A DNA stretch of 64,000 nt from an uncultured Marinobacter sp. (GTDB taxonomy: Bacteria; Pseudomonadota; Gammaproteobacteria; Pseudomonadales; Oleiphilaceae), in NCBI RefSeq assembly GCF_946886895.1, contig NZ_CAMPJO010000005.1, positions 282,674-346,673 of the forward strand. Reading direction: 5' to 3'. A program made the position numbers and the translations under genes. Below the pieces are notes generated by a model. That model made no database searches, was not told the DNA's origin, and saw only the letters and a list, made by a program, of their open reading frames with translations. This document shows positions 50,175 to 64,000 of the stretch, in pieces (the stretch's first letter is position 1; every line of letters starts with the position of its first letter).

Positions 50175-52041
50175 GGCGGGCCGCCTGTGGTTGGTAACGG
50201 AAACGGAGGAATTTCTGGGCATTACTGACCACCTGGAAGGCATCCTTGAGGTGGCTGCGCTCGAACGGAGAGAGGTCTTCGGGGCGCACGTTGTTGTCCG
50301 GTTCACGGCCCGCTTCAATGGCCAGGGCCTGGTGCCGGATGCGGACGATGGAAATAAACTCCAGGGCATCTCTCAGGTTGCCGAGGTCGTCGTCCAATAG
50401 CAGTTTGGTCTGGCCGATGGCTTTCAGTCGCTCAAACGAATTCTGGGCCCGGGAGCCGCAAGCCAGCGCATGCACCCGGATCAGGTCAGACAGCGGCCCG
50501 GTGCCGCGGCGCTTGAGGTTGAACGTTTTCTGTTGCTTGCCGCCTTCCTCAAGGACAAAGGAGCGGAAAAACCCGATGGGTGGTGTCCGGTTCAGGGCGT
50601 TGCGGGCAAGGAACGCCAGAAACCGCTTGTTGTTGGCGGCTTTTTCCGCCACCAGGGTCTTGAGTTGTTCGGTAAACTCCGTCTGGCCGTAGATGCCGTC
50701 CAGATCAAAGAAAATGTTGCTGTTGAGCAGGGCTTCGGCCTTCGGATTATCAATCCAGTCGGTGAAGTACGCCTTCCAGGCCCGCAGCGGCTGCCGCCAC
50801 TTCGGGTTGGTGGCCATGATGTCGCCGGTGCAGTAGGTGTAGCCGCACTCGGCCAGGCCATCGCTGACAAATTTCGCCAGTGCCAGGAAATACGCATCAT
50901 GCTCTTCGGGGACAAAACTGTCATCCAGAATCATGGCGTTGTCCTGGTCGGTCACCACCAGTTGCTCGTCCCGGGCCATGGAGCCCAGCGCCATAAAACA
51001 GTACGGTACCGGAGGCGGTCCCAGTTTTTCCTCGCCCAGCTCCAGCAGCCGCTGGGTAAAGCTGCGCCCGATACCGGCCATGGCGCTACCGATCATGTGT
51101 GAGTTGGCGTCTTCATTGACCATTCGCACGAAGCTGTCGCGCACATCCCGGCTGACCTTCTTCAGCCCCCGCACATGCTGCTGGTGGTAAATGTTGCTGA
51201 CCAGGTACAGACTGCTCTGGCTTTCGTACTTGACGATGTCGGACAGGGCAATCACTCCACGCACCTCTTCGCCCTCCATCACCGGCAGGTGATGCACATT
51301 GTTGTGCAGCATGGTGAGCATGGCCTCGAAAATGAAGACACTGGAACGGATGGTGATCGGATCTTCGGACATGATCTCGCTGATCGGTGTCTCCGAGGGC
51401 AGGGCTTCGCACAGGGCGCGAGTACGCAGGTCACGGTCGGTGATGATGCCCTGCAGCCGGGGGCGCTCGCCCGTCTCGTCCATCAGCAGGAGGGCCGAGA
51501 CACCCTGGTCGGTCATGATTCTGGCGGCTTCCTGCAACCTGACGGTGCTGGGGGCCGAGACCGGTTTGCGCGAGATCAGGCGGGTGACCCGCGAGGTCAT
51601 CAGCTCGTTCGACTTTTCCCGCCGCGACAGCGCCGAACGCAGGCGGCTGCGATCCTCGATTTCCACGAAATCGGCGAAGTTCTCATCATGCTCCCACAGG
51701 TACTGGAAGGTGCTGCCGGGAATTTTGTAGACCAGCGTGTCTTCCAGCGCCTTGGCCGGAAACCGCACCCGCTTGTTCATCAACAGGCCGAACTGGCCGA
51801 ACACTTCGCCTTCGCCGACCCGGTTGTAGAGTTCGCCTGATCGCCGGTAAATCTCAACGGCCCCGCTGCGGATGTAATACAGCCAGTCATTCTGCTCACC
51901 GAGTTCCAGAATGGGCGAGCCCGCGCGAAAGTAAACCACCTCGATACCGCCGACCACCCGGTCGAGCAGTTCCTCGGCCAATTCATCGAAGGGCGGGTAC
52001 TGGGCCATGTGGTTGCGGATGTCGATGAGCTCGGCCTGCAT
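50164..52041 (-). CDS. cNMP-binding/CBS/DUF294 nucleotidyltransferase-like protein
   Basis: A 625-residue multidomain signal protein. Residues about 20-130: cyclic-nucleotide-binding fold, with GEGEVFGQFGLLMN. About 150-280: CBS pair, with RLQGIITDRDLRTRAL and EVRGVIALSDIVKYE. About 310-450: DUF294 nucleotidyltransferase-like domain with GSMARDEQLVVTDQDNAMI, i.e. the Gly-Ser and Asp motif of GlnD-type enzymes. The last 150 residues are the DUF294 C-terminal substrate-binding domain. Start ATG 52041 has GGGAG upstream; longer readings run through the riboswitch region. Function unknown; likely ligand-dependent modification or sensing. The last 11 bases overlap the exonuclease gene. Confidence 0.87.
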   Translation of the reverse strand: MQAELIDIRNHMAQYPPFDELAEELLDRVVGGIEVVYFRAGSPILELGEQNDWLYYIRSGAVEIYRRSGELYNRVGEGEVFGQFGLLMNKRVRFPAKALEDTLVYKIPGSTFQYLWEHDENFADFVEIEDRSRLRSALSRREKSNELMTSRVTRLISRKPVSAPSTVRLQEAARIMTDQGVSALLLMDETGERPRLQGIITDRDLRTRALCEALPSETPISEIMSEDPITIRSSVFIFEAMLTMLHNNVHHLPVMEGEEVRGVIALSDIVKYESQSSLYLVSNIYHQQHVRGLKKVSRDVRDSFVRMVNEDANSHMIGSAMAGIGRSFTQRLLELGEEKLGPPPVPYCFMALGSMARDEQLVVTDQDNAMILDDSFVPEEHDAYFLALAKFVSDGLAECGYTYCTGDIMATNPKWRQPLRAWKAYFTDWIDNPKAEALLNSNIFFDLDGIYGQTEFTEQLKTLVAEKAANNKRFLAFLARNALNRTPPIGFFRSFVLEEGGKQQKTFNLKRRGTGPLSDLIRVHALACGSRAQNSFERLKAIGQTKLLLDDDLGNLRDALEFISIVRIRHQALAIEAGREPDNNVRPEDLSPFERSHLKDAFQVVSNAQKFLRFRYQPQAARHVP

Positions 52042-52175
52042 AAAACTCCCTGTGTGGTAAAGGAAAGCCATTGTCCCGTAAGGAATATAGCAGTGGCCGG
52101 CACCGGTAGTCACGACGGGTTCGTGACGGATCTCATTGACCACCCTGCGGACTGTTGCTAGCCTTGCCCGACTTT

Positions 52176-52395
52176 TCCAGGTGTCCGTCGCAAAGCGCGA
52201 CGGGTGAAACGGGAAGTCGGTGAGCCTGGTTCCGCCAGAGCAAGCCCGACGCTGCCCCCGCAACGGTAAGCAGGTTAACGACAATCGGATGCGCCACTGT
52301 GCCCCGGCATGGGAAGGTGATTGTCGCCAGACGGATGGGTCCGGAAACTGGACGCCCGACGTTTGCCCTGTGAGCCCGGAGACCGGCCTGGAAAA
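52176..52395 (+). ncRNA. cobalamin riboswitch (AdoCbl aptamer)
   Basis: Hallmarks of the B12 aptamer appear in order: GGTGTCC near the 5' end, GACGGGTGAAACGGGAAG, CGGTGAGCC, and the B12 box, whose conserved core GCTGCCCCCGCAACGGTAA is at 52251-52269. It closes with GAGCCCGGAGACCGGCCTG near 52375-52390. It precedes btuB. The 503-base gap 52042-52544 is thus occupied by this RNA and its expression platform and holds no other gene. B12 would lower expression of the uptake genes. Confidence 0.95.
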
Positions 52396-52483
52396 ACACC
52401 CGATGTTGCGGTGGGCGACCTGGGTGGGCGAATGTCCGGCTCTGATCCCTTCGATGCCCGCCTGCCGCCTGCCCCCTGTTCGC

Positions 52484-52535
52484 GCTCCGCAATTCAATCA
52501 GAAACTCCCGTGCGGGTGCGCACGGTGTGCGGAGC
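52484..52535 (+). promoter_or_regulatory. likely Shine-Dalgarno-sequestering hairpin of the riboswitch
   Basis: GCTCCGCA at 52484-52491 is perfectly complementary to TGCGGAGC at 52528-52535, which contains the btuB ribosome site GGAG. Formation of this stem would block translation initiation, and the aptamer may decide whether it forms. No clear terminator with T-run is seen. Confidence 0.55.
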
Positions 52536-52544
52536 AAGATAGCG

Positions 52545-54392
52545 ATGTCCAGATACCCATTTTCCGTCATGTTGGCCGGCGTGTCTTTGGCGGCCCTGCC
52601 GCTGGCCGTGTCGGCGCAGTCTGATAGCCAGGCCCAGGCCGATAGCCAGACAGAAGCCCTTGACCCGATTGTCGTCACGGCGACCCTTGGCCCGAAAACC
52701 GTGGGTGAAAGCCTGTCCTCCGTGACGGTGATCGAAAAAGACGACATACGCCGCCAGCAACCGGCCGAGTTCCGGGACCTGCTGCAGGCGCAGCCTGGCG
52801 TCAATGTGGTTTCCGATGGCAGCTATGGTAAAACCACCAGTGTCTTCCTGCGCGGTGCCGGCAGCTCCGGCACGGTGCTGCTGCTGGACGGCATCCGCCT
52901 GCGCTCGGCCACCGCCGGTATTCCACCCTGGCAATTCCTGCCGCCGGAGCTGATGGAGCGGGTGGAGCTGGTGCGCGGCGCGAAAAGCTCGCTTTACGGG
53001 GCAGACGCCGTGGGCGGCGTGATCCAGGCGTTTACCCTGGACCCGGAAGCGGGCCGTCAGGGCTGGGTGGAGCTGGCGGGCGGCTCCCATGAAACCCTCG
53101 AAACCACCGCCGGCGTGGCCGGGCGGGAAGGCCGGTCGGCGTTCCTGGCCGGCGGGGTCTATTCCGATACCGAGGGCACGAACCTGCGGGCCGGGGGTGA
53201 GGACAAAGGACTTCGTAACGCCGGCGGCCTGGCCAAAGTGAGCCACCAGTTCGACCAGGGCGGCGGTGCCGGTATAACGGTGTTCCAGTCTGAGGGCAAC
53301 ACCGAATTCGAAGGTGGTGATACCGATTTCCTGATCCGGGCCATGGGGCTCTATGTTGAGGCCGTCGCCAGCGACTACTGGCGCACCCGCATCCAGTTCT
53401 CCGAATCCCGGGACGAGCAGGAAACCTTCGGTTCCTTCCCCAGCGTATTCAATACCCTGCACCGGTCAGCCCGATGGGAAAACACCCTGACCGCCGGGGT
53501 GCATGAGTTTGTCATCGGCTCGGAAGTGTCGGTGGACGAGGTGGAGGGCACCAGCCAGTTCACCGAGGACAGCCGCACCAACAGCGCGGTGTTTGGCCAG
53601 GCCCGCCTTAATTTCGACGCCACTGACCTGATGGTCAGCGCCCGCCTGGACGACAACGAGGCCTACGGCAAGGAAGAAACCGGTGGCATTGCCCTGGGGC
53701 ACCAGTTCGACCGCGCCCATCGTGTGCGCCTGAGTTACGCGACGTCTTTCCGGGCGCCGACCTTCAACGACCTGTATCTGACCGTGCCTTTCTATACTGG
53801 CAACCCGAACCTCGAACCGGAAGAAGGCCAGATGGTGGAAGCCGGCGTGTCTGGCCGCTACGATCGATGGTTCTGGGATGTTGCGGTCTACCAGAACGAC
53901 GTGGAGGATCTGATCACCTTCGTGTCTGACCCGATGACCTTCGAGGGCACGGTGGAGAACGTCGAATCCGCCCGGATTCGCGGCATCGAGCTGTCATCCG
54001 GTTTCGAAGCCGGCAACTGGGATGTGAACGCCGCGCTGACCTGGGCCGACAGTGAGAACCGCGACACCGGCAAGCGCCTGCCGCGCCGGGCCGAGAAGAA
54101 TCTGCGCCTGGACGTTGATCGCCTGTTTGACCAGTGGTCCGTCGGGGCCAGCTTCATCGCCGAGAGCGATCGCTATAACGACGCCGCCAACAACAGCCTG
54201 TTGCCCGGCTACGGGACCGTGGATCTGCGGGCGGCGTGGAATTTCCTGCCGGGGTGGTCCGCCAGCTTCAAGGTGGATAATGTGCTGGATCGTCGTTATA
54301 CCACGAGCCAGGGTTTCGGCACTGAACCGTTTGACTACCTGGCGGCTGGCCGTACCTACATGGCGTCGGTACGCTATGATTTCCGCCAGTAG
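52545..54392 (+). CDS. btuB: TonB-dependent vitamin B12 outer-membrane receptor
   Basis: A 615-residue receptor: signal peptide ending near VSAQSDSQ, TonB-box-like DPIVVTATL, plug domain with LLLDGIRLRSAT and GAKSSLYGADAVGGVI, then a beta-barrel ending in SVRYDFRQ. It imports cobalamin across the outer membrane using TonB energy. ATG 52545 has GGAG at 52531-52534; a GTG at 52527 is upstream in frame but less likely. The cobalamin riboswitch ahead and BtuF/C/D genes behind make the substrate clear. The signal peptide carries a run of Asp/Gln/Ser/Ala after cleavage, a low-complexity stretch. Confidence 0.95.
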   Translation: MSRYPFSVMLAGVSLAALPLAVSAQSDSQAQADSQTEALDPIVVTATLGPKTVGESLSSVTVIEKDDIRRQQPAEFRDLLQAQPGVNVVSDGSYGKTTSVFLRGAGSSGTVLLLDGIRLRSATAGIPPWQFLPPELMERVELVRGAKSSLYGADAVGGVIQAFTLDPEAGRQGWVELAGGSHETLETTAGVAGREGRSAFLAGGVYSDTEGTNLRAGGEDKGLRNAGGLAKVSHQFDQGGGAGITVFQSEGNTEFEGGDTDFLIRAMGLYVEAVASDYWRTRIQFSESRDEQETFGSFPSVFNTLHRSARWENTLTAGVHEFVIGSEVSVDEVEGTSQFTEDSRTNSAVFGQARLNFDATDLMVSARLDDNEAYGKEETGGIALGHQFDRAHRVRLSYATSFRAPTFNDLYLTVPFYTGNPNLEPEEGQMVEAGVSGRYDRWFWDVAVYQNDVEDLITFVSDPMTFEGTVENVESARIRGIELSSGFEAGNWDVNAALTWADSENRDTGKRLPRRAEKNLRLDVDRLFDQWSVGASFIAESDRYNDAANNSLLPGYGTVDLRAAWNFLPGWSASFKVDNVLDRRYTTSQGFGTEPFDYLAAGRTYMASVRYDFRQ

Positions 54393-54421
54393 TCCCACTT
54401 ACCAACCGGTGTTCTGAGCCT

Positions 54422-55306
54422 ATGATCCACCGAGGGCTGGCCCTTTTTCTGGCGTTTTGTGCCCTGATGCCAATCCCGGCTTCGGCCCAGCCGCTGTGCG
54501 CCCGGGATGCCCTGGAGCGTGAAGTGTGCCTGGATGGGGCAGCCCGGCGGATCGTCTCGCTCTCCCCGGGCGCCACCGAACTGCTGTTTTCCGCCAGCGC
54601 CGGGAACCGCGTGGTTGCGGTAAGCGCCTGGAGCGATTTTCCGCCGGAAGCGACGGAGTTGCCTCAGGTGGGGGACGCCAACCGGCTGGATCTGGAGGCC
54701 ATCGTCTCGCTGGCGCCGGACCTGGTGGTGGCTTGGGTGGATGGCAACTCACGCAGCCAGCTGGAACGGCTTTCGGATCTTGGCATCCCGGTGTTCTGGC
54801 TGGCCCCGCGCACGTTCGGGGATATCGCCCGGGCGGTGGAGAACCTGGCACTGTTAACAGGCCAGTCCGCGGTGGGGAAGGCAAGGGCGGAATCGTTCCG
54901 TGAGGGTGTCGCCCGTTTGGAGGCCCGTTACGCCGGTGCGCCGCCGGTGCGGGTGTTTTATCAGATCTGGGACCGGCCACTGATGACCGTGAACCGTGAG
55001 GAACTGATCAGCAAGGCGATCGCCCTGTGCGGTGGCATCAACGTATTTGGAGAGCTACCAAGGCTGGTACCCCGTATCAGCACCGAGGCGGTGCTGGCGG
55101 CCAATCCGGAGGCAATCATTACGGCCGGACAATCCGGGAATAGCCAGTGGCTGGAAGGCTGGAAGCAATTTCCCGAGCTGACCGCGGTGGCCGCCGGGAA
55201 CCTGTTCCTGGAACCCCCCGACCTGCTGGCGCGGCCAACCTTGCGCATGCTGGACGGAACCAGGCACCTGTGCCAGACCCTGGAGCAGGCCCGTGCCAAT
55301 CTCTAG
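54422..55306 (+). CDS. btuF: periplasmic cobalamin-binding protein
   Basis: A 294-residue type III periplasmic binding protein. A signal peptide (LALFLAFCALMPIPASA) is followed by RIVSLSPGATELLFSASAG and LEAIVSLAPDLVVAW. These are typical of BtuF/FecB-like proteins. It delivers cobalamin to the membrane permease. Its 3' end overlaps the start of btuC by 14 bases, so the genes are co-translated. Riboswitch-controlled btuB lies 29 bases upstream. Confidence 0.9.
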   Translation: MIHRGLALFLAFCALMPIPASAQPLCARDALEREVCLDGAARRIVSLSPGATELLFSASAGNRVVAVSAWSDFPPEATELPQVGDANRLDLEAIVSLAPDLVVAWVDGNSRSQLERLSDLGIPVFWLAPRTFGDIARAVENLALLTGQSAVGKARAESFREGVARLEARYAGAPPVRVFYQIWDRPLMTVNREELISKAIALCGGINVFGELPRLVPRISTEAVLAANPEAIITAGQSGNSQWLEGWKQFPELTAVAAGNLFLEPPDLLARPTLRMLDGTRHLCQTLEQARANL

Positions 55307-56267
55307 CCCGGTAAAGCCCCTGCTGCTCCTGTTGTTGGCCAGCCTGACGGCAGCGGTACTGTCGGTCAGCATCGGCAGCAGTGCCATGGGCCTTGAAGAG
55401 ACCTTGCGGGTGCTCACCGGCAGTGGCAGCGAGTTGCAGCAAACCCTTATCCTCGACCTGCGATTGCCCCGCACCCTGAGCGCGTTCGCCACGGGCGGCT
55501 TGCTGGCAGTGGCCGGCGCCTTGATGCAGGTACTACTGCGCAACCCACTGGCCGACCCCTATGTGCTGGGTCTGTCCGGTGGTGCCGCCGTTGGTGCCTT
55601 ACTGGCCATGCTGGGCGGAGCCGCCGGTTTTCTGGTGTCTGGTTCGGCCTTTGCCGGCGCCATGCTGGCGACCCTGATGGTGTTCGGCCTCGCCCATGGC
55701 AGTGGCAGCTGGACGCCTTCCCGCCTGCTGCTCACCGGCGTGGTGGTGGCTGCCGGGTGGGGTGCCGTCATCACCCTGATTCTGTCGATGACCCCGGCTC
55801 GCCAGTTACCCGGCATGCTGTACTGGCTGATGGGTGACCTTTCCCACGCCGCCACCCCCTGGCCGGGCCTGATCGTTCTGGTTCTTGTCTGCCTGCTGGT
55901 GTTCCCCCTGGGCCGGGCGCTGAATGTACTGGCCCGGGGCTCATTGCAGGCGGCTGCGCTGGGTGTATCGGTTCGGCCCCTGGAATGGTCTATCTACCTG
56001 ATGGCCAGCCTGCTCACCGCGACCGCCGTCACCATGGCCGGTTCCGTCGGGTTTGTGGGCCTGGTGGTGCCGCACATGCTGCGGCTGGTGCTGGGCAATG
56101 ACCAGCGGCTGATCCTGCCGGCCTGTGCGCTGGCTGGTGGCACCCTGCTGGTGCTGGCAGACACGCTGGCGCGGGTGGTGATCGCGCCGGAACAGTTGCC
56201 GGTGGGCGTGATCACCGCGCTGATCGGCGTTCCGACGTTCCTGTACCTGCTCTACAGGAGCCGATGA
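55293..56267 (+). CDS. btuC: cobalamin ABC transporter permease
   Basis: A 324-residue permease of the FecCD/BtuC family with about ten helices. Key segments are LRLPRTLSAFATGGLLAVAGALMQ, LADPYVLGLSGGAAVGAL and GSVGFVGLVVPHMLRL, the last contacting the ATPase. The start is GTG 55293, with GGAG nearby, and overlaps the btuF stop. The end overlaps the btuD start by ATGA. It forms the membrane channel. Confidence 0.9.
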   Translation: MPISSPVKPLLLLLLASLTAAVLSVSIGSSAMGLEETLRVLTGSGSELQQTLILDLRLPRTLSAFATGGLLAVAGALMQVLLRNPLADPYVLGLSGGAAVGALLAMLGGAAGFLVSGSAFAGAMLATLMVFGLAHGSGSWTPSRLLLTGVVVAAGWGAVITLILSMTPARQLPGMLYWLMGDLSHAATPWPGLIVLVLVCLLVFPLGRALNVLARGSLQAAALGVSVRPLEWSIYLMASLLTATAVTMAGSVGFVGLVVPHMLRLVLGNDQRLILPACALAGGTLLVLADTLARVVIAPEQLPVGVITALIGVPTFLYLLYRSR

Positions 56268-57031
56268 TGACCTCACTGACCACCGAACAGCTCATCATCG
56301 ATATTCCCGGGCGCGCCCCGGGCGCGCCCTTGAATTTGTCCCTGCAGCCGGGCCAGGTCTGGGGCGTGCTTGGCCCCAACGGCGTGGGTAAAACCACACT
56401 GCTGCATACCCTGGCGGGCCTGCGAGAGCCCCGCAACGGCCGACTCCTGCTGGATGGCCGGCCACTCTTGGAAATCCGGCGTAAACGCATCTCGCAACAA
56501 ATGGGCCTGGTGTTCCAGGACCGACAGGACGGCTTCCCGGCCACCGCGCTGGAAACCGCCCTCATCGGTCGCCATCCCTGGTTGTCGCCCTGGCAGATGG
56601 AGACTGGCGAAGACCTGGCCATTGCCGAGCAGGCGCTGGACGCGCTGGATGTGATGCATCTTCGGGATCGACTGGTCAGCACCCTCTCCGGGGGCGAGCG
56701 GCAGCGGGTGGCCATCGCCACCCTGATGACCCAGGCACCAAAAATCTGGCTGCTGGACGAGCCCACCAACCACCTGGATTTGCGACATCAGACGGCCGTC
56801 ATGAAGCTGTTACGGAGCCAGGCCGCATCCAACCGGGCCGTTTTCATGTGCCTGCACGACCTGAACCTGGCCGCCCGCTGGTGCGACCAGATCCTGCTCA
56901 TGTTCCCCGATGGCCAGGCCTGCTGGGGCCCGGCCAGCGACATGCTTGTTATTACTGCCCTCGAAAAGCTGTTCGGCCAGCGCCTGCTGTCTACCGAGCT
57001 GGATGGCTTTCCGGTGTTTGTGCCGGGTTAG
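56264..57031 (+). CDS. btuD: cobalamin ABC transporter ATP-binding protein
   Basis: A 255-residue ATPase. Walker A GPNGVGKTTL, signature LSGGERQRVAIATLM, Walker B IWLLDEPTNHLD and switch FMCLHDLNLAARW. It drives vitamin B12 uptake with BtuC/BtuF. It starts inside the btuC stop. Its 3' end marks the border between core sequence and the integron region: the truncated integrase frame on the other strand reads across its last 40 bases. Confidence 0.92.
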   Translation: MMTSLTTEQLIIDIPGRAPGAPLNLSLQPGQVWGVLGPNGVGKTTLLHTLAGLREPRNGRLLLDGRPLLEIRRKRISQQMGLVFQDRQDGFPATALETALIGRHPWLSPWQMETGEDLAIAEQALDALDVMHLRDRLVSTLSGGERQRVAIATLMTQAPKIWLLDEPTNHLDLRHQTAVMKLLRSQAASNRAVFMCLHDLNLAARWCDQILLMFPDGQACWGPASDMLVITALEKLFGQRLLSTELDGFPVFVPG

Positions 57032-57296
57032 TGGCGAGCTCAAATATCCAGGGGGCTGCTGATGCCCCGCTGGCAAAATTGTCCGCCAGATGGCTTAGCC
57101 ACGCATTCACTTCCTCTGCCCCCATCGACTCCGGATGACGCTTGTTGTGGAACCGGATGAATTCGCGGACCCAGTTGCAGTAGGTTTTTTTCGTGCGGTA
57201 AGCCAGGTGGCGAGCTCGAATGAATGCCCGGAAGCGATCCATAAAACGTACAGGAACGGCAGGTAACGGGACTGGGATAGTAGTCTTTATGATCAT
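56991..57296 (-). pseudogene. intI: truncated integron integrase
   Basis: From ATG 57296 this reads 101 codons. After a short leader it shows MDRFRAFIRARHLAYRTKKT, then CNWVREFIRFHNKRHPESMG and EVNAWLSHLADN, which is the N-terminal core-binding (SAM-like) domain of integron integrases (IntI). The FIRFHxxRHPxxMG pattern separates it from XerC/XerD. Homology ends near codon 75, at about 57070. The reading then drifts into sequence next to btuD, and the entire catalytic domain (Arg and Tyr) is missing. Its orientation, opposite to the cassettes, is that of an intact integron. It cannot be active. Confidence 0.87.
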
Positions 57297-57453
57297 TCTT
57301 GTTTGAATGGCCAGAAAGGGGAGTGACGGGAAGTTGTTGACCTTATGGGATTTTTTGCCTAGTTTTTGAGTATTATTGGATTGAGATATGGGTCGTTGGA
57401 AAAGTGGTCGCGGGGACTCATATACAACTGTTATAAATCGAGAGGAGACAGAT
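57297..57453. other. putative intI/cassette border (attI region)
   Basis: The 157 bases between the integrase start and the first cassette gene should contain the original attI site and integrase promoter. I could not define an attI core with confidence. TGCCTAGTTTTTGAG at 57357-57371 is the nearest resemblance to a G-TT junction. Confidence 0.3.
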
Positions 57454-58133
57454 GTGGAATTTCTAGCCATTTTATTCGGTGTAGGCTCTATTTTGTTCCT
57501 GGTTGCCGCAATAATTGGTGCAATCAAACCGAAAATCGTGAAGCAGGAGAGCCGGGGAAAGGCTTTTGGCATTAATGCAATTACTGCGTGCATTCTGTTT
57601 TTTCTATTGATTTTGGTTTTGCCGCCAGCATTCGATTATGAAAAGAGCCTTTCTGAAATAAAAGAACTTAACGAGGAAGATAGAAAAGAAATTCTTGCCG
57701 AATATTTGGAGTCAAATGAAATTGGCGAAAAGCATGCAAGTGAATTTTATAATTGTATGTCTGACATGGTTTACAATAAGTCGGGTACATTATCCTTAGG
57801 TGAAGTTTTGGGTTGGTGTAAAGACGAGTTTTTACGTAACGGTAACTCGTCGAAAATGTATATGTAAACTACGAAAGTCTTGAAAATCAGTTCAGTCAAT
57901 GGAATGGCGCACACAATGAATTAGAGAGAATTATTCTTGAATCTATGAATGACCCGGATTCATATGAGCATATTGAAACACGATACAGAGTAATTAAAGA
58001 TGGTGAAAAATCCCATTTACTTTTGATAACTGAGTTCAGAGGTAAAAACTCTTTTGGGGGAGTTGTAAAGCAGAAAGTTGTTGCAAAAGCAAATCTCGAA
58101 AATGGGTCAATTATAGAAATTTTAGAGCAGTAA
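57454..58133 (+). pseudogene. frameshifted cassette gene: two-helix membrane protein
   Basis: The first segment (57454-57867, GTG start with GAGGAG upstream, 137 codons) has two transmembrane helices (FLAILFGVGSILFLVAAIIG and NAITACILFFLLILVL) and a cytoplasmic helical part. It stops shortly after NGNSSKMYM. The frame one base back is open from 57846 and reads NQFSQWNGAHNELERII, NDPDSYEHIETRYRV and GKNSFGGVVKQKVVAKA to 58133. That tail is a recurrent C-terminal domain of small membrane proteins, so the two pieces look like one gene broken by a one-base indel near 57850. It is AT-rich compared with the core. Function unknown. Confidence 0.65.
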
Positions 58134-58200
58134 CTTTTCGGAACTTATTGGCATAGGCTTGTTGCTTTTTTGCTCAAGCCTAAATCATCCAGTTTCGAGT

Positions 58201-58292
58201 TTATAACAAGTCGCATCAGTGCGCGGCCGATGGCCGCCGGACGCCCTTTACGTGGCTCCTTCGTCGCCACTCCAAGGGCTCGGCGTTAGAGT
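58201..58292 (+). other. attC recombination site 1
   Basis: Begins TTATAACAAG and ends GGGCTCGGCGTTAGA. In between are nested inverted repeats (GCGGCC/GGCCGC and GCCCTT...GTGGC/GCCAC...AAGGGC). AAC and GTT ends about 80-90 bases apart and internal dyads are the features of integron attC sites. It closes the first cassette and opens the next, whose gene starts seven bases on. Confidence 0.75.
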
Positions 58293-58298
58293 AAAAGT

Positions 58299-58727
58299 AT
58301 GAACTACGAATTTCACGAAATTATGGAATGGTCAGCTTGGGCTAACCTCGATGCAAAAAAGGACATTGAGCTTATCTTGCTTAAAGGTCATTTGATTCTT
58401 GAAAATCTAATTGATGTTGCTCTAGTAACTAACGGTTTTGAAAACAAACTTAGCTCTTCTTTTCATGGAAAGGCTAAAATTTTAAAGAAAATAGAGAAAA
58501 GCAGTTCAAGTGAACTCGGAAAGCTCTCTGAGCTTTTACTTGAGTTAAATGGAATCAGAAACAAAATTGCCCATGAATTTTTATACGATATAAATGACGG
58601 TGAAGTTGAAGCGTGGTCTTTGAGTGTATTAAGTTCGTTCGAAGGGATTAAGTTTTCAAAATTCACATATAGAACAAAAATCGTCCATGCTTTTTCTGCT
58701 TTAGCGAGTGCATTAGCTAAAATTTAG
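58299..58727 (+). CDS. HEPN-domain cassette protein
   Basis: A 142-residue helical protein, AT-rich gene. The C-terminal part of the first two thirds has LNGIRNKIAHEFLYD, with R-x4-H, the active-site motif of HEPN ribonucleases. The N-terminal half has LKGHLILENLIDVAL and SSFHGKAKILKKI, as in MAE_28990/abortive-infection-like HEPN proteins. HEPN proteins act as toxins, RNases or defence factors. There is no partner gene (nucleotidyltransferase/MNT antitoxin) in the cassette, so its control is unclear. It is the second cassette gene, and a left half of a possible attC starts at 58737. Confidence 0.7.
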   Translation: MNYEFHEIMEWSAWANLDAKKDIELILLKGHLILENLIDVALVTNGFENKLSSSFHGKAKILKKIEKSSSSELGKLSELLLELNGIRNKIAHEFLYDINDGEVEAWSLSVLSSFEGIKFSKFTYRTKIVHAFSALASALAKI

Positions 58728-59107
58728 ATTTAAGTTCTAACACATATGAGCCTTCTCGGAATCAATAGGCAATAGTCATTTTTTTTGGCCGCGCCAGCGG
58801 CCAATCTAAACCCATGAGCAAGAACGCCTGCTTCGTCAGTCTCGCAGAGCTGTCAGGCACTTACAGCAAACACATATAGGGGCTCTCTTACGTGGCTTTA
58901 GACCACCGCCTGACCCGTTGTTCCTTCGGTCGGTCAGGGGCACCAGACATTCATCGGTTAACCGGTCACTGGCACTATTCAAAGATCTGGCTGCATAGCT
59001 CCAGTTAGGGTCAGGCTCAGGACCGGTGTAAGCGCACTGGCTCATGGTATTAAGGCCCGCCCACGGGGTGGCTAATCAAAGCGACTGGCTTCCCCCTCTG
59101 TCAGCCT
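58728..59107. other. 380 bases without a recognised gene between the HEPN cassette and the IS element
   Basis: A possible attC left end TTCTAACACATATGAGCC is at 58734-58751. TTGGCCGC-GCCA-GCGGCCAA, a perfect 8-base stem, is near 58785-58804. GGCTCATGGTATTA at 59039-59052 is nearly the reverse complement of the attC-like left end, 300 bases away. A 69-codon reverse reading (58836-59045) exists, but has no ribosome site I can support and no known domain. The segment is more GC-rich than the adjacent cassette and may be debris of another element. Confidence 0.4.
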
Positions 59108-59155
59108 AGTTGTCCAGTAGGCGATTTCGCCTGAATTTCACTAGTCGGGGGCGGC

Positions 59156-59677
59156 ATGGGAGCATTCATGCCACGCTATTCCGAAGAACGTAAAGCTGCA
59201 GTGCTGAAGAAGCTGTTACCTCCGCAGAATCGAAGTGTCGTGTCGGTGGCGGCAGAGGAAGGCATATCCGATGTGACTCTGTATAGTTGGTTAAAACAGT
59301 GTCGAGAACAAGGAATGCCCGTGCCAGGTAATCGTAATACCGGGGAAGACTGGTCCCCTGAAGCCAAGCTGGCCGTTGTCGTGGAAACGGCCTCTATGTC
59401 CGAAGCCGAACTCAGTGCCTACTGTCGCGAGAAAGGCCTGTATCCGGAGCAAGTGCAGCGCTGGAAGGAAGCCTGCCTTCAGGGCGCTGGCATGCAGGAA
59501 GACCGGGATAAAGCGGCTCAGAAGCAGAAACGAGAGTCCCAGAAAACCATCAAAAAGCTGAAGGCGGAAGTTCGCCGCAAAGACCAGGCCCTGGCTGAGA
59601 CCACCTCGCTGCTGGTGCTGTCAAAAAAGCTCGAAGCCTTGTACGGCGAGGATCCGGACAGCAGCGAGGACGACTGA
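59156..59677 (+). CDS. IS3-type transposase OrfA
   Basis: A 173-residue protein with two helix-turn-helix-like segments: MPRYSEERKAAVLKKLL with SVAAEEGISDVTLYSWLK, and EAELSAYCREKGLYPEQVQRW. A Lys/Gln-rich helical (leucine-zipper-like) part follows and ends LVLSKKLEALYGEDPDSSEDD. A second ATG at 59168 has GGGAG before it. It binds the IS ends. The slippery run A_AAA_AAG at 59623-59629, in the reading frame, would let ribosomes continue into orfB to make the fused transposase. Confidence 0.85.
   Translation: MGAFMPRYSEERKAAVLKKLLPPQNRSVVSVAAEEGISDVTLYSWLKQCREQGMPVPGNRNTGEDWSPEAKLAVVVETASMSEAELSAYCREKGLYPEQVQRWKEACLQGAGMQEDRDKAAQKQKRESQKTIKKLKAEVRRKDQALAETTSLLVLSKKLEALYGEDPDSSEDD
59623..59629 (+). 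promoter_or_regulatory. -1 programmed frameshift signal A_AAA_AAG
   Basis: Codons AAA AAG at 59624-59629 in the orfA frame are preceded by A at 59623, making the canonical A_AAA_AAG heptamer. The frame one base back is open from here to 60738. The orfA stop is 48 bases downstream. This is the standard IS3 mechanism for OrfAB. Confidence 0.8.
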
Positions 59678-60738
59678 CGCCGCTGGACGAACGTGCAAGG
59701 CTCCTAGAGCTGTTTGATGAAGCGATTGCCGGTGGTGCCGCCCGATACAAAGCGGCGGAGCTAATCGACATCAGCGAACGCACATTGAAGCGCTGGCAAG
59801 GCTCTGATGGCCAAATTGGCCAAGACCAGCGCCCTGAGGCAGAGCCGGTCGAACAGCCTCATAAACTCACACAGGCCGAGGAGTTGGCCATTCTGAGCGC
59901 ATGTAATCAACCTCAGTACCGGAGTTCGCCACCGTCACAGATCGTGCCTTCACTGGCTGATAAAGGCGTTTATCTGGCCTCGGAATCCTCGTTCTACCGG
60001 GTTCTGAAAAAGCACCAACAACAGAACTATCGGGGTCGCATGAAGCCGCCCCGCAAGGTGCCGGAGCCGACCAGCTTCACCGCGACAGGCCCGAACCAGG
60101 TGTGGAGCTGGGACATTAGTTTCTGCCCGTCAGCGGTGCGTGGTCAACATTGGTATCTGTATCTGATCATGGACATCTACAGCCGCAAGATCGTTGCCTG
60201 GGAAATCCATGAGGCCGAATCCGGGGAACTGGCCAGGAGGCTGGTTGAGCGTGCATTGCTGCGCGAGGGCTGCTGGCACAATCCGCCGGTACTGCACTCC
60301 GACAATGGCGCGCCGATGACCTCCTACACGCTCAGGGCCCGGTTGGCAGACCTGGGTATGCTGATGTCTCACAGCCGCCCAAGAGTCAGCAACGACAACC
60401 CTTATTCGGAGTCGTTGTTCCGGACCGTTAAATACTGCCCGGAGTGGCCCTCAAAAGGCTTTGCATCACTCACGGCGGTCCGCGACTGGATGCTGGCGTT
60501 CGAGTATGCCTACAACGAGCGACACTTGCACAGCGGCATCCGGTTCGTGACACCGGCAGACCGGCATCGTGGTGTTGATCACGAACGCCTGGCGCATCGG
60601 AAAACGGTTTATGAAAGAGCAAAGCGCCGGAATCCACGGCGCTGGTCTGGTAATACCCGAAACTGGGAAGTGACCGGACCGGTATCGCTCAACCCTGGCA
60701 AGTTGCAGGAAGTTGAGCACAATAAACTGGCCGCTTAA
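59629..60738 (+). CDS. IS3-type transposase OrfB (DDE integrase core), reached by frameshift
   Basis: About 369 codons in the -1 frame after the slip. N-terminal: LDERARLLELFDEAIAGG, HTH_21-like SFYRVLKKH. Integrase core: Asp in NQVWSWDISFCPS, Asp in LHSDNGAPM and Glu in NDNPYSESLFRT, the DDE triad with proper spacing. C-terminal: SGIRFVTPADRHRG. An independent start is not obvious: the only options are CTG 59674 and TTG 59785. It therefore probably needs the A_AAA_AAG slip. It is intact and might be active. Confidence 0.85.
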   Translation, partial: ARSLVRRGSGQQRGRLTPLDERARLLELFDEAIAGGAARYKAAELIDISERTLKRWQGSDGQIGQDQRPEAEPVEQPHKLTQAEELAILSACNQPQYRSSPPSQIVPSLADKGVYLASESSFYRVLKKHQQQNYRGRMKPPRKVPEPTSFTATGPNQVWSWDISFCPSAVRGQHWYLYLIMDIYSRKIVAWEIHEAESGELARRLVERALLREGCWHNPPVLHSDNGAPMTSYTLRARLADLGMLMSHSRPRVSNDNPYSESLFRTVKYCPEWPSKGFASLTAVRDWMLAFEYAYNERHLHSGIRFVTPADRHRGVDHERLAHRKTVYERAKRRNPRRWSGNTRNWEVTGPVSLNPGKLQEVEHNKLAA

Positions 60739-60774
60739 ACGCGGTCATTTGGACAACTGGGTTGAAAATCGCCG

Positions 60775-61572
60775 GTGGACAGGAAACACCAGATCATCAT
60801 CGACGCCCTGGCCTTCGGCGAAGGCCAGGAACACCACACCCTGCAACCGGTGCTGGAGAGCGTGGAAGCCCGACTCAGGAAACTGGGCATTGCCGAGAGC
60901 ATCTACCAACAAGGCACCATCATCACGGCTGATACCGGCTTCGCCAATGAGGCCAACATGAAATACCTGCACGAACGGCAGATCAATGGCTACGTACCAG
61001 ACAATAAATTCCGCAGCCGGGATCCGAAGTTCCAGAACCAGAAAGACAAATACGGCAAGCGCCATCAGAACCAGCCAACCACGGGTTGGAAAGACATCAT
61101 TCCGGCCAGTGAGTTTCAGTTTGATCCGGTCAATCTCACTTGTGTCTGTCCGGCAGGTAAAGAGCTTCATTATGAGGCGACTCGTACGGATGGGAATGGT
61201 GTATCCAGAGCACACTTCAAGGGCCGCCTGCTTCAGTGCCGACACTGCCCCAAGAAACACCAATGCATGCAAAACCCGGCCTCGGCTGATCACCGTAAAG
61301 GCAGTGGTAGGCAGGTGACTTTTGCATTAGAGCGGAATCGTGGGCCCAGCTACACCGACTGGATGAAACATCGAGTGGACAGCCCTCAGGGCAAAGAGAT
61401 CTACAGTCACCGCATGTCGGTTGTGGAACCGGTGTTCGGTAACATCGGCACCAACAAACGGCTGAACCGGTTCAGTCTGCGAGGCAAGAAAAAGGTCCAG
61501 GGCCAATGGCAGCTATACTGCCTGGTGCATAACATTGAGAAGCTGGCGAATTACGGACAGATGGCGGCGTGA
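60775..61572 (+). pseudogene. IS1182-type transposase, C-terminal remnant
   Basis: 265 codons that match only the C-terminal half of IS1182-family transposases: DRKHQIIIDALAFGEGQEH, TADTGFANEANMKYLHE, LQCRHCPKKHQCMQ, and VVEPVFGNIGTNKRLNRF. The N-terminal half, with the first DDE residue, is absent. The IS3-type right end lies 17 bases upstream, at the break. The GTG start is accidental. It is a relic that shows an older IS was cut when the younger one arrived or by later deletion. Confidence 0.8.
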
Positions 61573-61789
61573 TCCGGGGGAGGAAGTGCCCCGGAATACC
61601 CCTTGGGCCGCGGGCCATCGGTGTCTGAACACGGAAATACTGGGATTGGCGGCTATTAAAGGCCAACCAACCCGAAAACTGGACAATGCCGGCAGAATTG
61701 GCCGGCTGACAAAATGAGATCGAGGGTCGTGAAATGGTGGCTCATTTTTGGGTTTTTCTACACCCTCGTTAGACCAACGAGGTAGAACC
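61573..61789. other. 3' end of the IS1182-type relic and cassette border
   Basis: Contains dyads AAAATGAG/CTCATTTT and GAGGGT/ACCCTC near 61716-61766, probably the old IS right end. CCTCGTTAGACCAACGAGG follows, with GTTAGAC at 61768-61774 matching the attC core GTTRRRY, plus a 7-base stem. It marks the start of the next cassette. Confidence 0.45.
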
Positions 61790-62212
61790 GTGGCGAAAGG
61801 ATCTAGAACTGATTCGGCTCTTCTGCCTGAGGCTCGCATGGACCGCATGCGCATGGAAATGTATCGGTTGCGCCGGACTGTGCTTTCACTTGTGTCCGAG
61901 CAGTATCGCGAGCTGATAGACCCACCGTACGATTTCACCCAAGCAGAGGGAAACCGGTGGGACTATGATGTTGTCAGGAGGATCATTGAGCTTGTGGAGC
62001 CGGATACTGAGGGGCGTAGCGCGTGCCCGCTTTGCGGAGATACAACACAAAGTTATGGTCTTGGCTTCAGCGTACCCACTGGGCTCGAACGCCACCTCCT
62101 TGGCTCCCACGGATCCCGCGAATGCAACGTTATGTACGCTGCGAAGGGTCTGCTAAGAGTTCGTCACAGAGAGCTTTATCCCGGTGATTATGGTCCCTAC
62201 GGTTGTGACTGA
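61790..62212 (+). CDS. cassette protein with zinc-finger-like motif
   Basis: A 140-residue protein. GTG 61790 has a GAGGT ribosome-like site; an upstream ATG at 61748 would cross the attC core. It has SACPLCGDTTQS (CxxC) and later GLERHLLGSHGSRECNV (His-x4-His with a Cys), a candidate zinc-binding C2H2 module of about 35 residues. The first half is charged and helical (RLRRTVLSLVSEQYRELID). No family was recognised. It is the sole gene of its cassette. Confidence 0.6.
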   Translation: MAKGSRTDSALLPEARMDRMRMEMYRLRRTVLSLVSEQYRELIDPPYDFTQAEGNRWDYDVVRRIIELVEPDTEGRSACPLCGDTTQSYGLGFSVPTGLERHLLGSHGSRECNVMYAAKGLLRVRHRELYPGDYGPYGCD

Positions 62213-62225
62213 TGCACTTGGCAGG

Positions 62226-62308
62226 TCTAACAATGCCATTAAGTTTGTTCCGGACCGATGGTCCTCCACCGGACGGCTTTCAGCCGCCGCTTATGGCTGG
62301 CGTCATAC
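62226..62308 (+). other. attC recombination site 2, with altered right core
   Basis: Starts TCTAACAATGCCATTAAG and ends CTTATGGCTGGCGTCATAC. The ends pair imperfectly (GCCATTAAG with CTTATGGC), as attC arms do, and a CGGACC/GGTCC and CGGCTTTCAGCCG dyad lies between. The right core reads GTCA in place of GTTA. Recombination there may be weak. Confidence 0.7.
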
Positions 62309-62388
62309 TGTCTATGGCGGTGGTTGCTGGACTGCAAGCCACTGGGTAATATCCGCTTTTGGAAAAACCATGGAAAGGAGAAAACACA

Positions 62389-62724
62389 ATGGACTGTCCC
62401 ACAATTTCGGGCTTGAAGCTGGACTCTGAAGATCAGGACGCACTGGAGTCAATAAGGAAGGCTCAGCGCAATGGAAACATGCTCGAGATTCTTTTGCCCG
62501 CTGGCGTTTTAACAACGATATTTCTTGGCAACAACTCTGCTCAAGTAACTTTCAATGTTCATTCCACCGACTGGGTTCTGTTCGCGCGGTCAATGAGCAA
62601 GATTCAGCCTGTTGTTAGAAAAACAATATCCAATATTGCCCAAATGCAAAGACTCAGAGCAGGGTTGTCATACGAGCAACGGCAGTTCTGGGAAGCCGTG
62701 GATAATGGTTGCGGGGGCTATTAA
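62389..62724 (+). CDS. cassette protein of unknown function
   Basis: A 111-residue protein, ATG 62389 chosen for AAGGAG at 62375-62380. No domain was recognised. It has a short hydrophobic segment (LEILLPAGVLTTIFLG) and a helical C-terminal half (KIQPVVRKTISNIAQMQRL) ending NGCGGY. It is cytoplasmic or weakly membrane-associated. The next gene starts one base after its stop, so the two are co-translated and may act together. Confidence 0.55.
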   Translation: MDCPTISGLKLDSEDQDALESIRKAQRNGNMLEILLPAGVLTTIFLGNNSAQVTFNVHSTDWVLFARSMSKIQPVVRKTISNIAQMQRLRAGLSYEQRQFWEAVDNGCGGY

Positions 62725-62725
62725 T

Positions 62726-63238
62726 ATGAAAACTAATTTCAAACTCGCATGCCCTTTTCTGCTCGCCGCCACTTCTGTTTTTGCTGGTGGTAACAACGAA
62801 TCTACTGCGCATCGCTACATTTCTGAGAAAATTGCAGAATATGGAGAAGCCGTAGAGCGGTGTGAAAAAATAGCGGCCAGCCGTCCCTTACCCGATGAGT
62901 CAGTGATCGAACATTTGCGGGGTTATAGTATCGAGGATGTTAGAGCTTTTCTCATCACGCGAGGTTCGCATGTCTCGGAAGTTTGCGAAAAGCCAGAGTT
63001 GACTGAATTGGCTTATGCAATTGGTGTTTTGGAGGGTGCTGATATTTCCGGGACACCAAAAGAGATTGTACAGAACATAAAATTGCTCGTTTTTGGCGGA
63101 GCAACTTGGGGATTGAAAAAGAAATATCTTGAGCTACCAATAAGTGTCAAAAGTATTTTGGAGCAAACCGATTATTTTGATAAGCCGTTCGATGACATTG
63201 CTATTCTAGACGCTATTGAAAATGCCAAAAAGCCATAA
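62726..63238 (+). CDS. exported cassette protein of unknown function
   Basis: A 170-residue protein with a clear signal peptide (KTNFKLACPFLLAATSVFAGG) and a mature helical part that has two cysteines (AVERCEKIA and SEVCEKPEL) which might pair. No known domain. ATG 62726 is preceded by the stop of the previous gene; the in-frame extension to 62612 overlaps it and lacks a signal. The stop codon TAA is part of the attC left end, a usual cassette arrangement. Confidence 0.6.
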   Translation: MKTNFKLACPFLLAATSVFAGGNNESTAHRYISEKIAEYGEAVERCEKIAASRPLPDESVIEHLRGYSIEDVRAFLITRGSHVSEVCEKPELTELAYAIGVLEGADISGTPKEIVQNIKLLVFGGATWGLKKKYLELPISVKSILEQTDYFDKPFDDIAILDAIENAKKP

Positions 63239-63313
63239 CAATCGGCTACACAGCGACCGGTTTTCCGCCGCTTCGCGGTTCCAAGCCGCCGGCGCATGAG
63301 CCGGGCGTTAGCA
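63233..63313 (+). other. attC recombination site 3
   Basis: Left: CCATAACAATCGGCTACAC; right: GCATGAGCCGGGCGTTAGC. TCGGCT pairs with AGCCGG, and the core dyad CCGCCG...CTTCGCGG follows. The size (about 80 bases) and layout are typical. It is the clearest attC of the window, and separates the exported-protein cassette from brnTA. Confidence 0.88.
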
Positions 63314-63337
63314 AGATGCCAATAGGCACACACTCTG

Positions 63338-63350
63338 CTAGACTCCTCCC
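63338..63350 (+). promoter_or_regulatory. extended -10 promoter of brnT, likely leaderless
   Basis: TGCTAGACT at 63336-63344 is an extended -10 (TGN + TAGACT) ending six bases before the ATG. No ribosome site is present, so transcription would begin at or near the start codon. The following cassette shows TGCTACACT at the same distance from its ATG. Confidence 0.5.
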
Positions 63351-63623
63351 ATGAAGCAAATTAACTGGAATGCTGAAAAGAACCAGCAGTTGATGAGCGA
63401 GCGCGGAGTTTCCTTCGAAGATGTCCTATTTGCTCTTCAGTCTGGTGGTTTACTTGATGATGGACCTCACCCCAACAGGGACAAGTACCCGAATCAACGC
63501 CTGCTTGTGGTTCGGATTGACGATTACGCCTGGCTGGTGCCTTACGTCGAGAATGATCGAGAGATCTTTCTCAAAACGGTCATCCCCAGTCGAAAGGCCA
63601 CCAAGACATTTCTAGGGGGGTAG
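63351..63623 (+). CDS. brnT: BrnT-family toxin
   Basis: A 90-residue RelE/BrnT-type ribonuclease toxin. It begins with INWNAEKNQQLMSERGVSFEDV, the BrnT signature (W-x5-N at the start), has DKYPNQRLLVVRID and ends in REIFLKTVIPSRKATK, with basic residues for RNA binding. The antitoxin gene is next, one base after the stop, the usual toxin-first order. It stabilises the cassette or stops growth under stress. Its cassette ends with a short attC. Confidence 0.9.
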   Translation: MKQINWNAEKNQQLMSERGVSFEDVLFALQSGGLLDDGPHPNRDKYPNQRLLVVRIDDYAWLVPYVENDREIFLKTVIPSRKATKTFLGG

Positions 63624-63624
63624 C

Positions 63625-63927
63625 ATGGCCAAGACTAAATTAGATCCCGAAGAGCAAGAGCTGCTGGAGGCTTACGAATCCGGAGAGTTCGAGTCAGATC
63701 TGGATGCCGATCGTCGGGAATACCTGACGAAGGCAGCGGAAGAAACGTTCAAAAAGGATAAGCGGATTAATATCCGTATCTCCAGTCGCGACCTGGAGGC
63801 ACTTCAGCGCCGGGCACTGGAAGAGGGGCTTCCGTACCAGTCCCTGGTTTCCAGTGTCTTGCACAAGTATGTCTCCGGCGGCCTCAAGGACATCTCTGCT
63901 AACAAGTCAGGCCAGCGGACGCGCTAA
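63625..63927 (+). CDS. brnA: BrnA-type / CopG-like antitoxin
   Basis: A 100-residue protein. The N-terminal region is acidic (PEEQELLEAYESGEFESDLD), and the C-terminal half has DKRINIRISSRDLEALQRRALEEG, a ribbon-helix-helix DNA-binding pattern, with YQSLVSSVLHKY. It neutralises BrnT and represses the operon. It follows brnT with one base between. Its stop TAA lies in the inverted repeat CTAACGC...GCGTTAG. Confidence 0.87.
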   Translation: MAKTKLDPEEQELLEAYESGEFESDLDADRREYLTKAAEETFKKDKRINIRISSRDLEALQRRALEEGLPYQSLVSSVLHKYVSGGLKDISANKSGQRTR

Positions 63928-63954
63928 CGCGCGCCGCTGCCTTTTGCGTTAGCT
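63922..63954 (+). other. short attC-like site 4
   Basis: GCTAACGC and GCGTTAGC form a perfect 8-base inverted repeat with a 15-base centre. The ends resemble attC cores (TAAC and GTTA), but the whole is only 33 bases, much shorter than normal. It closes the brnTA cassette. Confidence 0.5.
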
Positions 63955-63994
63955 GCTGAGTACATAAAGCACACAATGTGCTACACTCTGGCTT

Positions 63995-64000
63995 ATGAAA
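63995..64000 (+). CDS. start of the next cassette gene (cut by the window)
   Basis: ATGAAA follows TGCTACACT (63979-63987) at the spacing seen for brnT, so a gene probably starts here. Its identity cannot be read. Confidence 0.35.

Follow-up and report, generated by a model that had tools for sequence, protein, structure and literature searches.

A decayed sedentary chromosomal integron next to btuD of a Marinobacter, and two insertion sequence families that may have sought its attC sites

What stands downstream of btuD in an uncultured Marinobacter sp., and how did insertion sequences (ISs) come to lie within it? The question is raised by a 64,000-bp stretch of contig NZ_CAMPJO010000005.1 (the whole of which we call the window), the last 7 kb of which the original prediction described as a decaying chromosomal integron with a truncated integrase gene, intI, and several cassettes. 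Our answer, to which we give a probability of roughly nine in ten, is that these are the remains of a sedentary chromosomal integron and that two of its inserts, an IS110-family and an IS1182-family element, sought attC. A decaying sedentary chromosomal integron is supported by its anatomy, namely an intI relic on the minus strand opposite to attC sites and cassettes on the plus strand, an attI remnant and at least five cassettes, as well as by parallel decay at btuD in relatives. What the original prediction had overlooked is a broken fifth attC with two putatively attC-targeting ISs, the internal-deletion structure of intI, and the loss of its promoter region and LexA box. The host chromosome is that of a Marinobacter, given that BtuD is 84-89% identical to its eight closest relatives (L001-L008), all of which belong to that genus. 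Genome-wide statements below rest on the genomes of relatives (50 Marinobacter genomes), not on the window's own.

The integrase gene survives as two pieces that lie in different frames of the minus strand. In amino acid sequence, 67 residues of the N-terminal piece can be compared with IntI of Marinobacter lipolyticus SM19, a protein of 327 aa, and are 92.5% identical to it; the piece also matches models of integron integrases (PRK15417, 4e-16; TIGR02249, 2e-14) and a SAM_4 domain (2.7e-19). In the NCBIfam listing at E<=10, for which the HMMER filters drop most matches above 0.1, no XerC or XerD model is listed for this remnant, only XerA_Arch (3.5e-4). The profile comparison proposed by the original prediction therefore favors an integron integrase, and a XerC/XerD identity is rejected because the integron-integrase models match better. 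The second piece consists of 24-26 nt that are ∼92% identical to the intI 3' ends of three relatives (L095, L094 and L116). Going by aligned coordinates, 8 bp lie between the two pieces, as opposed to 744-745 bp in four of four undeleted relatives, indicating an internal deletion of ∼736 bp. A further deletion of 174-175 bp, measured against five of five relatives, fuses the attI side to codon 4 and took with it the start codon, the promoter region and the LexA-type box CTGTN8ACAG that is present in all five. Hence the predicted N-terminal part is real, but there is no simple cut at about residue 75; the gene has suffered an internal and a 5' deletion, and the full-length IntI with catalytic domain that marks a complete sedentary chromosomal integron is absent. 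A 200-aa open reading frame (ORF) that starts at 57593 lies mostly outside the intI match.

The attI site beside intI is kept in part, with ∼152 bp up to the crossover remaining and ∼174 bp gone. In an alignment of six loci, all sequences diverge past ACAA.TG^TTA. Cassette 1 accordingly begins at 57431, and the idea that attI had been misread as a cassette is rejected.

In order to locate attC sites, 31 sites out of five other Marinobacter arrays were used for a two-arm profile and for covariance models. The first model, R1 (MAFFT alignment of 25 attC), came out without base pairs; R2 used a stated structure and 12 of the 31 sites, and R3 was made from the 104 matches of R2 at E<=1, all of which lie outside the window and five of which are doubled because L037 and L122 overlap. 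A simple attC scanner overlooked known sites, and Rfam gives no attC match within 50000-64000. With a limit of E<=10 and the filters at their default, R3, the covariance search that the original prediction had suggested, finds four matches on the two strands of the 64 kb, all of them plus-strand and inside the array; two are strong and two damaged. With the filters off, two more weak matches appear over 57000-64000 (E 2.9 and 9.6). The sites predicted at 58201, 62226 and 63233 are thereby placed at 58203, 62227 and 63235, and the one predicted at 63922 falls inside the match at 63899-63952. An array of attC sites in one direction, as a sedentary chromosomal integron carries, is thus present, and the cassette genes point in one direction as well. 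At the damaged attC1, the best related sites of other arrays match to 58277 only, where two of the relatives (L066 and L127) hold extra bases. According to PMC2727003, recombination takes place only at L'-R', where AAC and GTT are the conserved bases.

The surroundings of btuD in relatives, for which the best 80 of 110 relatives formed the comparison set, show that this is a long-standing integron site of the genus. A full-length IntI follows directly after btuD in L066 and after btuD-cob-bluB in L037, L038 and L048, the gene being deleted in L036. Other relatives hold only relics at btuD, such as an IntI tail in L006 and lone cassettes in L003 and L004. In a scan with R3 at E<=0.1 that covered 49 of the 80 btuD loci, 10 loci yielded 27 sites between them, every one on the plus strand and downstream of btuD; nine of these 10 loci also supplied the R3 training set, L028 being the exception. 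Internal deletions with other breakpoints are found in further Marinobacter intI copies (L036, G012 contig 10 and G032 contig 4). The relatives present parallel decay of an integron at the same btuD locus, which we reckon ordinary.

Three observations on these relatives may be set down here. In Marinobacter sp. CHS3-4 (L033, 16312-20559), eight attC sites lie downstream of btuD and no intI match (E<=1e-15) is found within the locus. Downstream of btuD in L003 (10918-10957) and in the same region of L004, the leader that precedes the lone cassettes closes with a 30-41 bp attI-like stretch. It is 94-100% identical to the attI side of another integron lineage of Marinobacter, one that has its intI at a different place. 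At G012:C10:1039677-1040360 (in L132), an in-frame intI deletion leaves an open frame of 268 aa in which residues 13-156 are joined to 245-325.

An ancestor of this Marinobacter would, then, have held a sedentary chromosomal integron downstream of btuD, cassettes would have been gained through a working IntI or one acting in trans, and the array would now be eroding. It may also be locked, as the original prediction proposed, unless an integrase acts in trans. Cassette 5 is the only cassette for which exchange as a unit ending at G^TT was found. As a whole unit (>=635 of 649 bp) it is 92-96% identical in five of the 50 Marinobacter genomes, with partial matches in others. Against M. pelagius the identity is 96% over 648 bp and begins and ends at G^TTA points, with differing bases outside. 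Identity bounded in this manner is the mark of a mobile cassette, and since the BtuD of M. pelagius is 78-79% identical to the window's, the comparison suggests that cassette 5 moved after the species parted. It is conceivable that the array is not locked at all, a second IntI elsewhere in the genome moving its cassettes, in which case it would be a CALIN, a store of cassettes supplied in trans. Five of the eight closest relatives by BtuD have a full-length IntI outside the btuD stretch read, 34 of the 50 genomes have, as read from the match table, an IntI match of at least about 300 residues without a stop, and attC4 and attC5 look intact. However, attC1, attC2 and attC3 are damaged, and the arrival of cassette 5 may predate the death of intI. 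We regard a store fed in trans as a serious possibility, though not the favored one.

The decayed integron is further marked by its fifth site, attC2, which is split by three insertion sequences into an R'' (58736-58742) and an R' (61768-61774). The left insert begins at 58738. A search of nine Marinobacter genomes located the 354 bp from there in four of them, and Alteromonas has them too; in M. confluentis they directly adjoin a different cassette gene. In Alteromonas and in three of the four Marinobacter copies the sequence leads into a transposase of the IS110 family encoded on the opposite strand, the fourth copy (L091) being short, and the three longer Marinobacter copies carry an 11-bp subterminal repeat. 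The transposase in L088, the only one on which Pfam was run, comprises DEDD_Tnp_IS110 and Transposase_20, both absent from the window. Past the far end of the element, the rest of an attC is matched by R3 in L089 and L090 and not in L088, and in L081 it was read by eye; in the window, only the left side of this insertion is readable. Readings of 58738-59091 as an unusual attC, an inverted cassette or a structured RNA were discarded, as the relatives show it to be an IS110-family end. From these comparisons we take it to be the probable remnant of an IS1111-attC-type element, a known kind, which would have entered attC at R'' as such elements do.

The right insert is the 3' part of an IS1182-family element. 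Its transposase remnant occupies 60775-61572, and its right end (61753-61767) has one repeat base changed and is followed by GTTAGACC; the left half is lost. In another Marinobacter, a copy that is 96.7% identical over the 211 bp compared reaches TTTTTCTACACCCTC at the same point and then gives way abruptly to a different cassette. Under NF033551 the relative L163 scores 280.3 bits against a cut-off of 270, and the window's piece 135.4 bits over model positions 274-487, which is under this whole-protein cut-off because only part of the transposase remains. Comparison with IS1182 ends moved the attC2 R' from an earlier placement at 61733 to 61768, and GGCTCAT at 61739, once considered an L' arm, belongs to the IS1182 end.

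Where else do such elements sit? In the intact copies of L163 and L131, the left end GAGGCTGTAGAAAAA stands directly after an attC ending in GCGTT, and the right end TTTTTCTACAGCCTC directly before GTTA and a cassette. Searched as a pattern without flank, TTTTTCTACAGCCTC occurs at 72 places in 21 of the 50 Marinobacter genomes, with none for the backwards control. Read outward, 35 of the 72 distinct ends are followed by GTTR and 33 by AAC, which is the attC edge; three single cases, namely a truncated AACGC, a GTTC and an attC-like AAAGCC, bring the ends with a GTT or attC-like edge to 71 of 72. An R3 attC abuts 28 of the 35 attC-side ends, whereas none ends at the element's right end among the 36 cassette-side ends. 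All 15 complete elements that lie whole in one locus stand between GTT and GTT or AAC and AAC. Fourteen of them, three being only 167 bp long, are in Marinobacter. The fifteenth, of 216 bp, belongs to a different genome within the class, and the pattern that located one of its ends includes GTTR. Forms of 167 bp with IS1182 terminal repeats, each between GTT repeats, occur in L202, L218 and L220. Positions in Marinobacter therefore show an extreme preference for the attC R' core, most copies lying at the same attC point by a pattern that contains no flank.

Outside the genus, transposases that are 40-43% identical occur in three relatives with GTT or AAC edges, one end having been read in Pseudoalteromonas NC201 and both in P. 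piscicida and in Catenovulum, for the last of which the repeats were read with at most three mismatches. Beside the P. piscicida copy (L221) lies a stretch with an attC-like fold, in which TAAC pairs with GTTG. A scan of the class with TTCTACAGSCTCGTTR gave 33 of 369 genomes; this pattern contains the flank, and the result is not used as evidence of targeting. A DNA search with the IS1182 copy found no match in plasmids, and among the matches listed, protein relatives of its transposase on plasmids are at most 43% identical, apart from one record at 60-80%.

These positions could also have arisen if IntI had carried the IS1182 element as a gene cassette, in which case G^TT would be nothing other than ordinary cassette ends. 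Cassette insertion likewise gives GTT on both sides, and orientation is mostly fixed, with 28 left-type ends on the attC side and 25 right-type ends on the cassette side versus four left-type ends on the cassette side and 15 unclear. Nevertheless, in none of the 36 cassette-side ends does an R3 attC match end at the element's right end. In addition, the element comes with a full transposase and with terminal inverted repeats, the 167-bp forms that share those repeats occupy the same place, and the cassette starts and attC edges that adjoin it are of 36 and 31 different kinds, respectively. Carriage by IntI is, in our judgment, unlikely. Because of the terminal repeats, the short forms and the lack of attC at the right end, we infer instead that the IS1182 transposase itself picks the site. 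The element would enter the R' core GTT and leave GTT on each side, thereby coming to lie exactly where an attC meets the cassette that follows. Of the three insertion sequences in the window, two would accordingly have arrived because attC is their target. Finally, it is very hard to believe that the intI lesions are assembly errors, even if a single assembly lies behind them, since two separate clean-flanked deletions, the frameshifted cassette 1 and the damaged attC sites are mutually consistent and other Marinobacter intI copies carry different internal deletions.

Taken together, these data make it probable that there is an IS1182 lineage, with short non-autonomous forms, that is specialized on integrons. 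Its transposase would insert at the G^TT of attC and park the element between cassettes, leaving neighboring genes unbroken. The lineage would span Marinobacter, Pseudoalteromonas and Catenovulum, would be unrelated to the IS110 solution and would form a second attC-targeting IS family, the window holding a relic in an attC that was entered from its other end by an IS1111-attC-like element. Our confidence in this specialization was lowered slightly because R3 misses the sites beside the copies outside Marinobacter.

A number of points weigh against the overall picture. The two-arm score of attC1 is 28.2, versus 27.9 for the best chance match in 112 kb, with an R3 E value of 0.09. The left half of IS1182 and the middle of attC2 are gone from the window, so that the insertion site is readable from the right only, and that the R' at 61768 and the R'' at 58736 come from one attC is something that we infer. 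One of the 72 ends (L191) has no attC edge, and at E<=1 R3 leaves seven of the 35 attC-side ends unmatched. R3 matches no site abutting the copies of L221-L223, with other attC found in L221 and L222; L223 has no clear attC-like fold, and L222 was read at one end only. Lastly, cassette 5, so similar to the copy of another species, sits in an array with a dead integrase, which may consequently not be fully locked.

Table 1. Features of the btuD-proximal integron remains, in window positions
Feature	Position	Strand	Remarks
btuD, chromosomal neighbor of the integron	56264..57031	+	84-89% identity to first eight relatives
intI 3' remnant, last ∼9 codons and stop	57040..57069	-	8 bp from btuD stop
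intI 5' remnant, codons 4 to ∼72	57078..57278	-	start codon lost, no catalytic domain
attI remnant to crossover G57430^T57431	57279..57430		six of six sequences aligned up to ACAA.TG^TTA
Cassette 1, frameshifted gene	57431..58285	+	pieces 57454-57867 and 57945-58133
attC1, damaged, L' arm largely deleted	58203-58289	+	R3 E 0.09
Cassette 2 gene, HEPN-like protein with RNxxAH	58299..58727	+	31-sequence alignment
attC2 R'' (TCTAACA)	58736..58742	+	IS110-family element starts here
Noncoding end of IS110-family, IS1111-attC-like IS	58738..59091		transposase lost here
IS3-family insertion sequence	59092..60774	+	plasmid copies begin at 59092 and reach 60736-60774
IS1182-family IS, 3' part	60775..61767	+	ends in terminal repeat TTTTTCTACACCCTC
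attC R' core GTTAGAC	61768..61774	+	directly after IS1182 end
Cassette 3	61769..62302	+	gene 61790-62212
attC3, damaged, R' core GTC not GTT	62227-62306	+	R3 E 0.01; compare L126 attC
Cassette 4, two unknown ORFs	62303..63307	+	62359-62724 and 62726-63238
attC4, looks intact	63235-63311	+	R3 47.4 bits, E 4e-10
Cassette 5, BrnT-like and CopG/BrnA-like genes	63308..63948	+	63351-63623 and 63625-63927; common to other Marinobacter
attC5, looks intact	63899-63952	+	R3 52.0 bits, E 2e-11
Cassette 6 start, cut by window end	63949..64000	+	like start of M. maroccanus L003 BrnT/BrnA cassette

The cassettes differ in composition and content. Relative to the chromosomal part of the stretch, which is 60.8% GC, cassettes 1 and 2 are AT-rich (39.4% and 33.4% GC), as had been said of the cassette genes in general, but cassettes 3-5 are less so (55.4%, 46.5% and 52.9%). 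The described merging of stop codons with attC left ends holds for attC4, which overlaps a stop, and attC5, which contains one, but not for the other three. Both pieces of cassette 1 match a single 226-aa homologue (P0044), and we therefore read them as one gene broken by a frameshift. The HEPN assignment of cassette 2 rests on RNxxAH, which is invariant in all 31 aligned sequences of the 42 found (the window's protein being counted in both numbers), but the protein has no Pfam match. This family, which includes a protein of Vibrio cholerae among its 42, also has a strongly conserved ELILLKGHLILE motif. Cassette 3 encodes a small protein, in which inspection by eye suggests a possible zinc-finger-like motif. 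Of the toxin-antitoxin pair announced for the array, the CopG/BrnA-like protein of cassette 5 exceeds the PF12441 cut-off (33.1 bits against 28), but the BrnT-like protein remains under that of PF04365 (24.2 bits against 34.5). Among the matches listed, the coding parts of cassettes 1, 3 and 4 are absent by DNA from the 50 Marinobacter genomes, in which the attC ends of all three are matched, the start of the cassette 3 query matches the IS1182 end, and cassette 4 has weak partial matches of 65-84% in four genomes. On the other side of btuD, a cobalamin riboswitch at 52162-52405 lies upstream of the btu genes. As for the IS3-family element, the annotation of a close copy (NZ_CP021334.1, 145654-149160) places a reverse transcriptase gene of a group II intron inside that copy.

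What would these findings mean? Decayed integrons are common, and by itself the array contributes one more case, from Marinobacter, in which decay has run in parallel at btuD across a series of relatives. The IS1182 reading, if true, would matter more: a DDE transposase that finds the attC recombination point would parallel what the IS1111 elements achieve with RNA guidance, and attC would prove distinctive enough to be recognized repeatedly, which would offer both a tool and a test for how cells see attC. These IS1182 elements also interrupt or rearrange cassette arrays and so bear on array death and on cassette annotation. Our full-text literature searches, with most subscription journals and ISfinder outside their scope, found no report of attC targeting by IS1182; nor did the texts within their reach include a publication that joins Marinobacter, chromosomal integron and attC, or, in wider searches, one on Marinobacter integrons. 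As far as these searches reach, attC targeting by IS1182 would be new, whereas inactivated integrons and IS1111-attC elements are already known.

Inactivated integrons and CALIN are described in PMC12444791. As in the inactivated sedentary integrons of Xanthomonas portrayed there, the window presents a fixed chromosomal place, lineage-wise deletion or truncation of intI, and relic or CALIN arrays; unlike them, the place is btuD in Marinobacter, the LexA box is lost and two ISs appear to target attC. Group IIC-attC introns are another mobile class that uses attC as a target. They are retroelements and not DDE transposons, and none was noticed in the array, no dedicated search having been made. 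The IS1111-attC group is reportedly the subject of papers by Tetu and Holmes in 2008 and Post and Hall in 2009. The left insert resembles it, in the relatives, by a DEDD transposase, a downstream noncoding region, the subterminal inverted repeat TGAGCCTTCTC/GAGAAGGCTCA and insertion at an attC end; unlike a full element, the putative member in the window keeps the noncoding end only. IS1111 elements in general, according to PMC11187229, have a noncoding region downstream of the transposase, and two of them target one attC end. The right insert resembles the IS1182 family (NF033551) in its transposase, which in the relative L163 is over the curated cut-off, and in its terminal inverted repeats, but differs from IS1182 elements as described in its near-strict insertion at the attC R' core, with GTT repeats.

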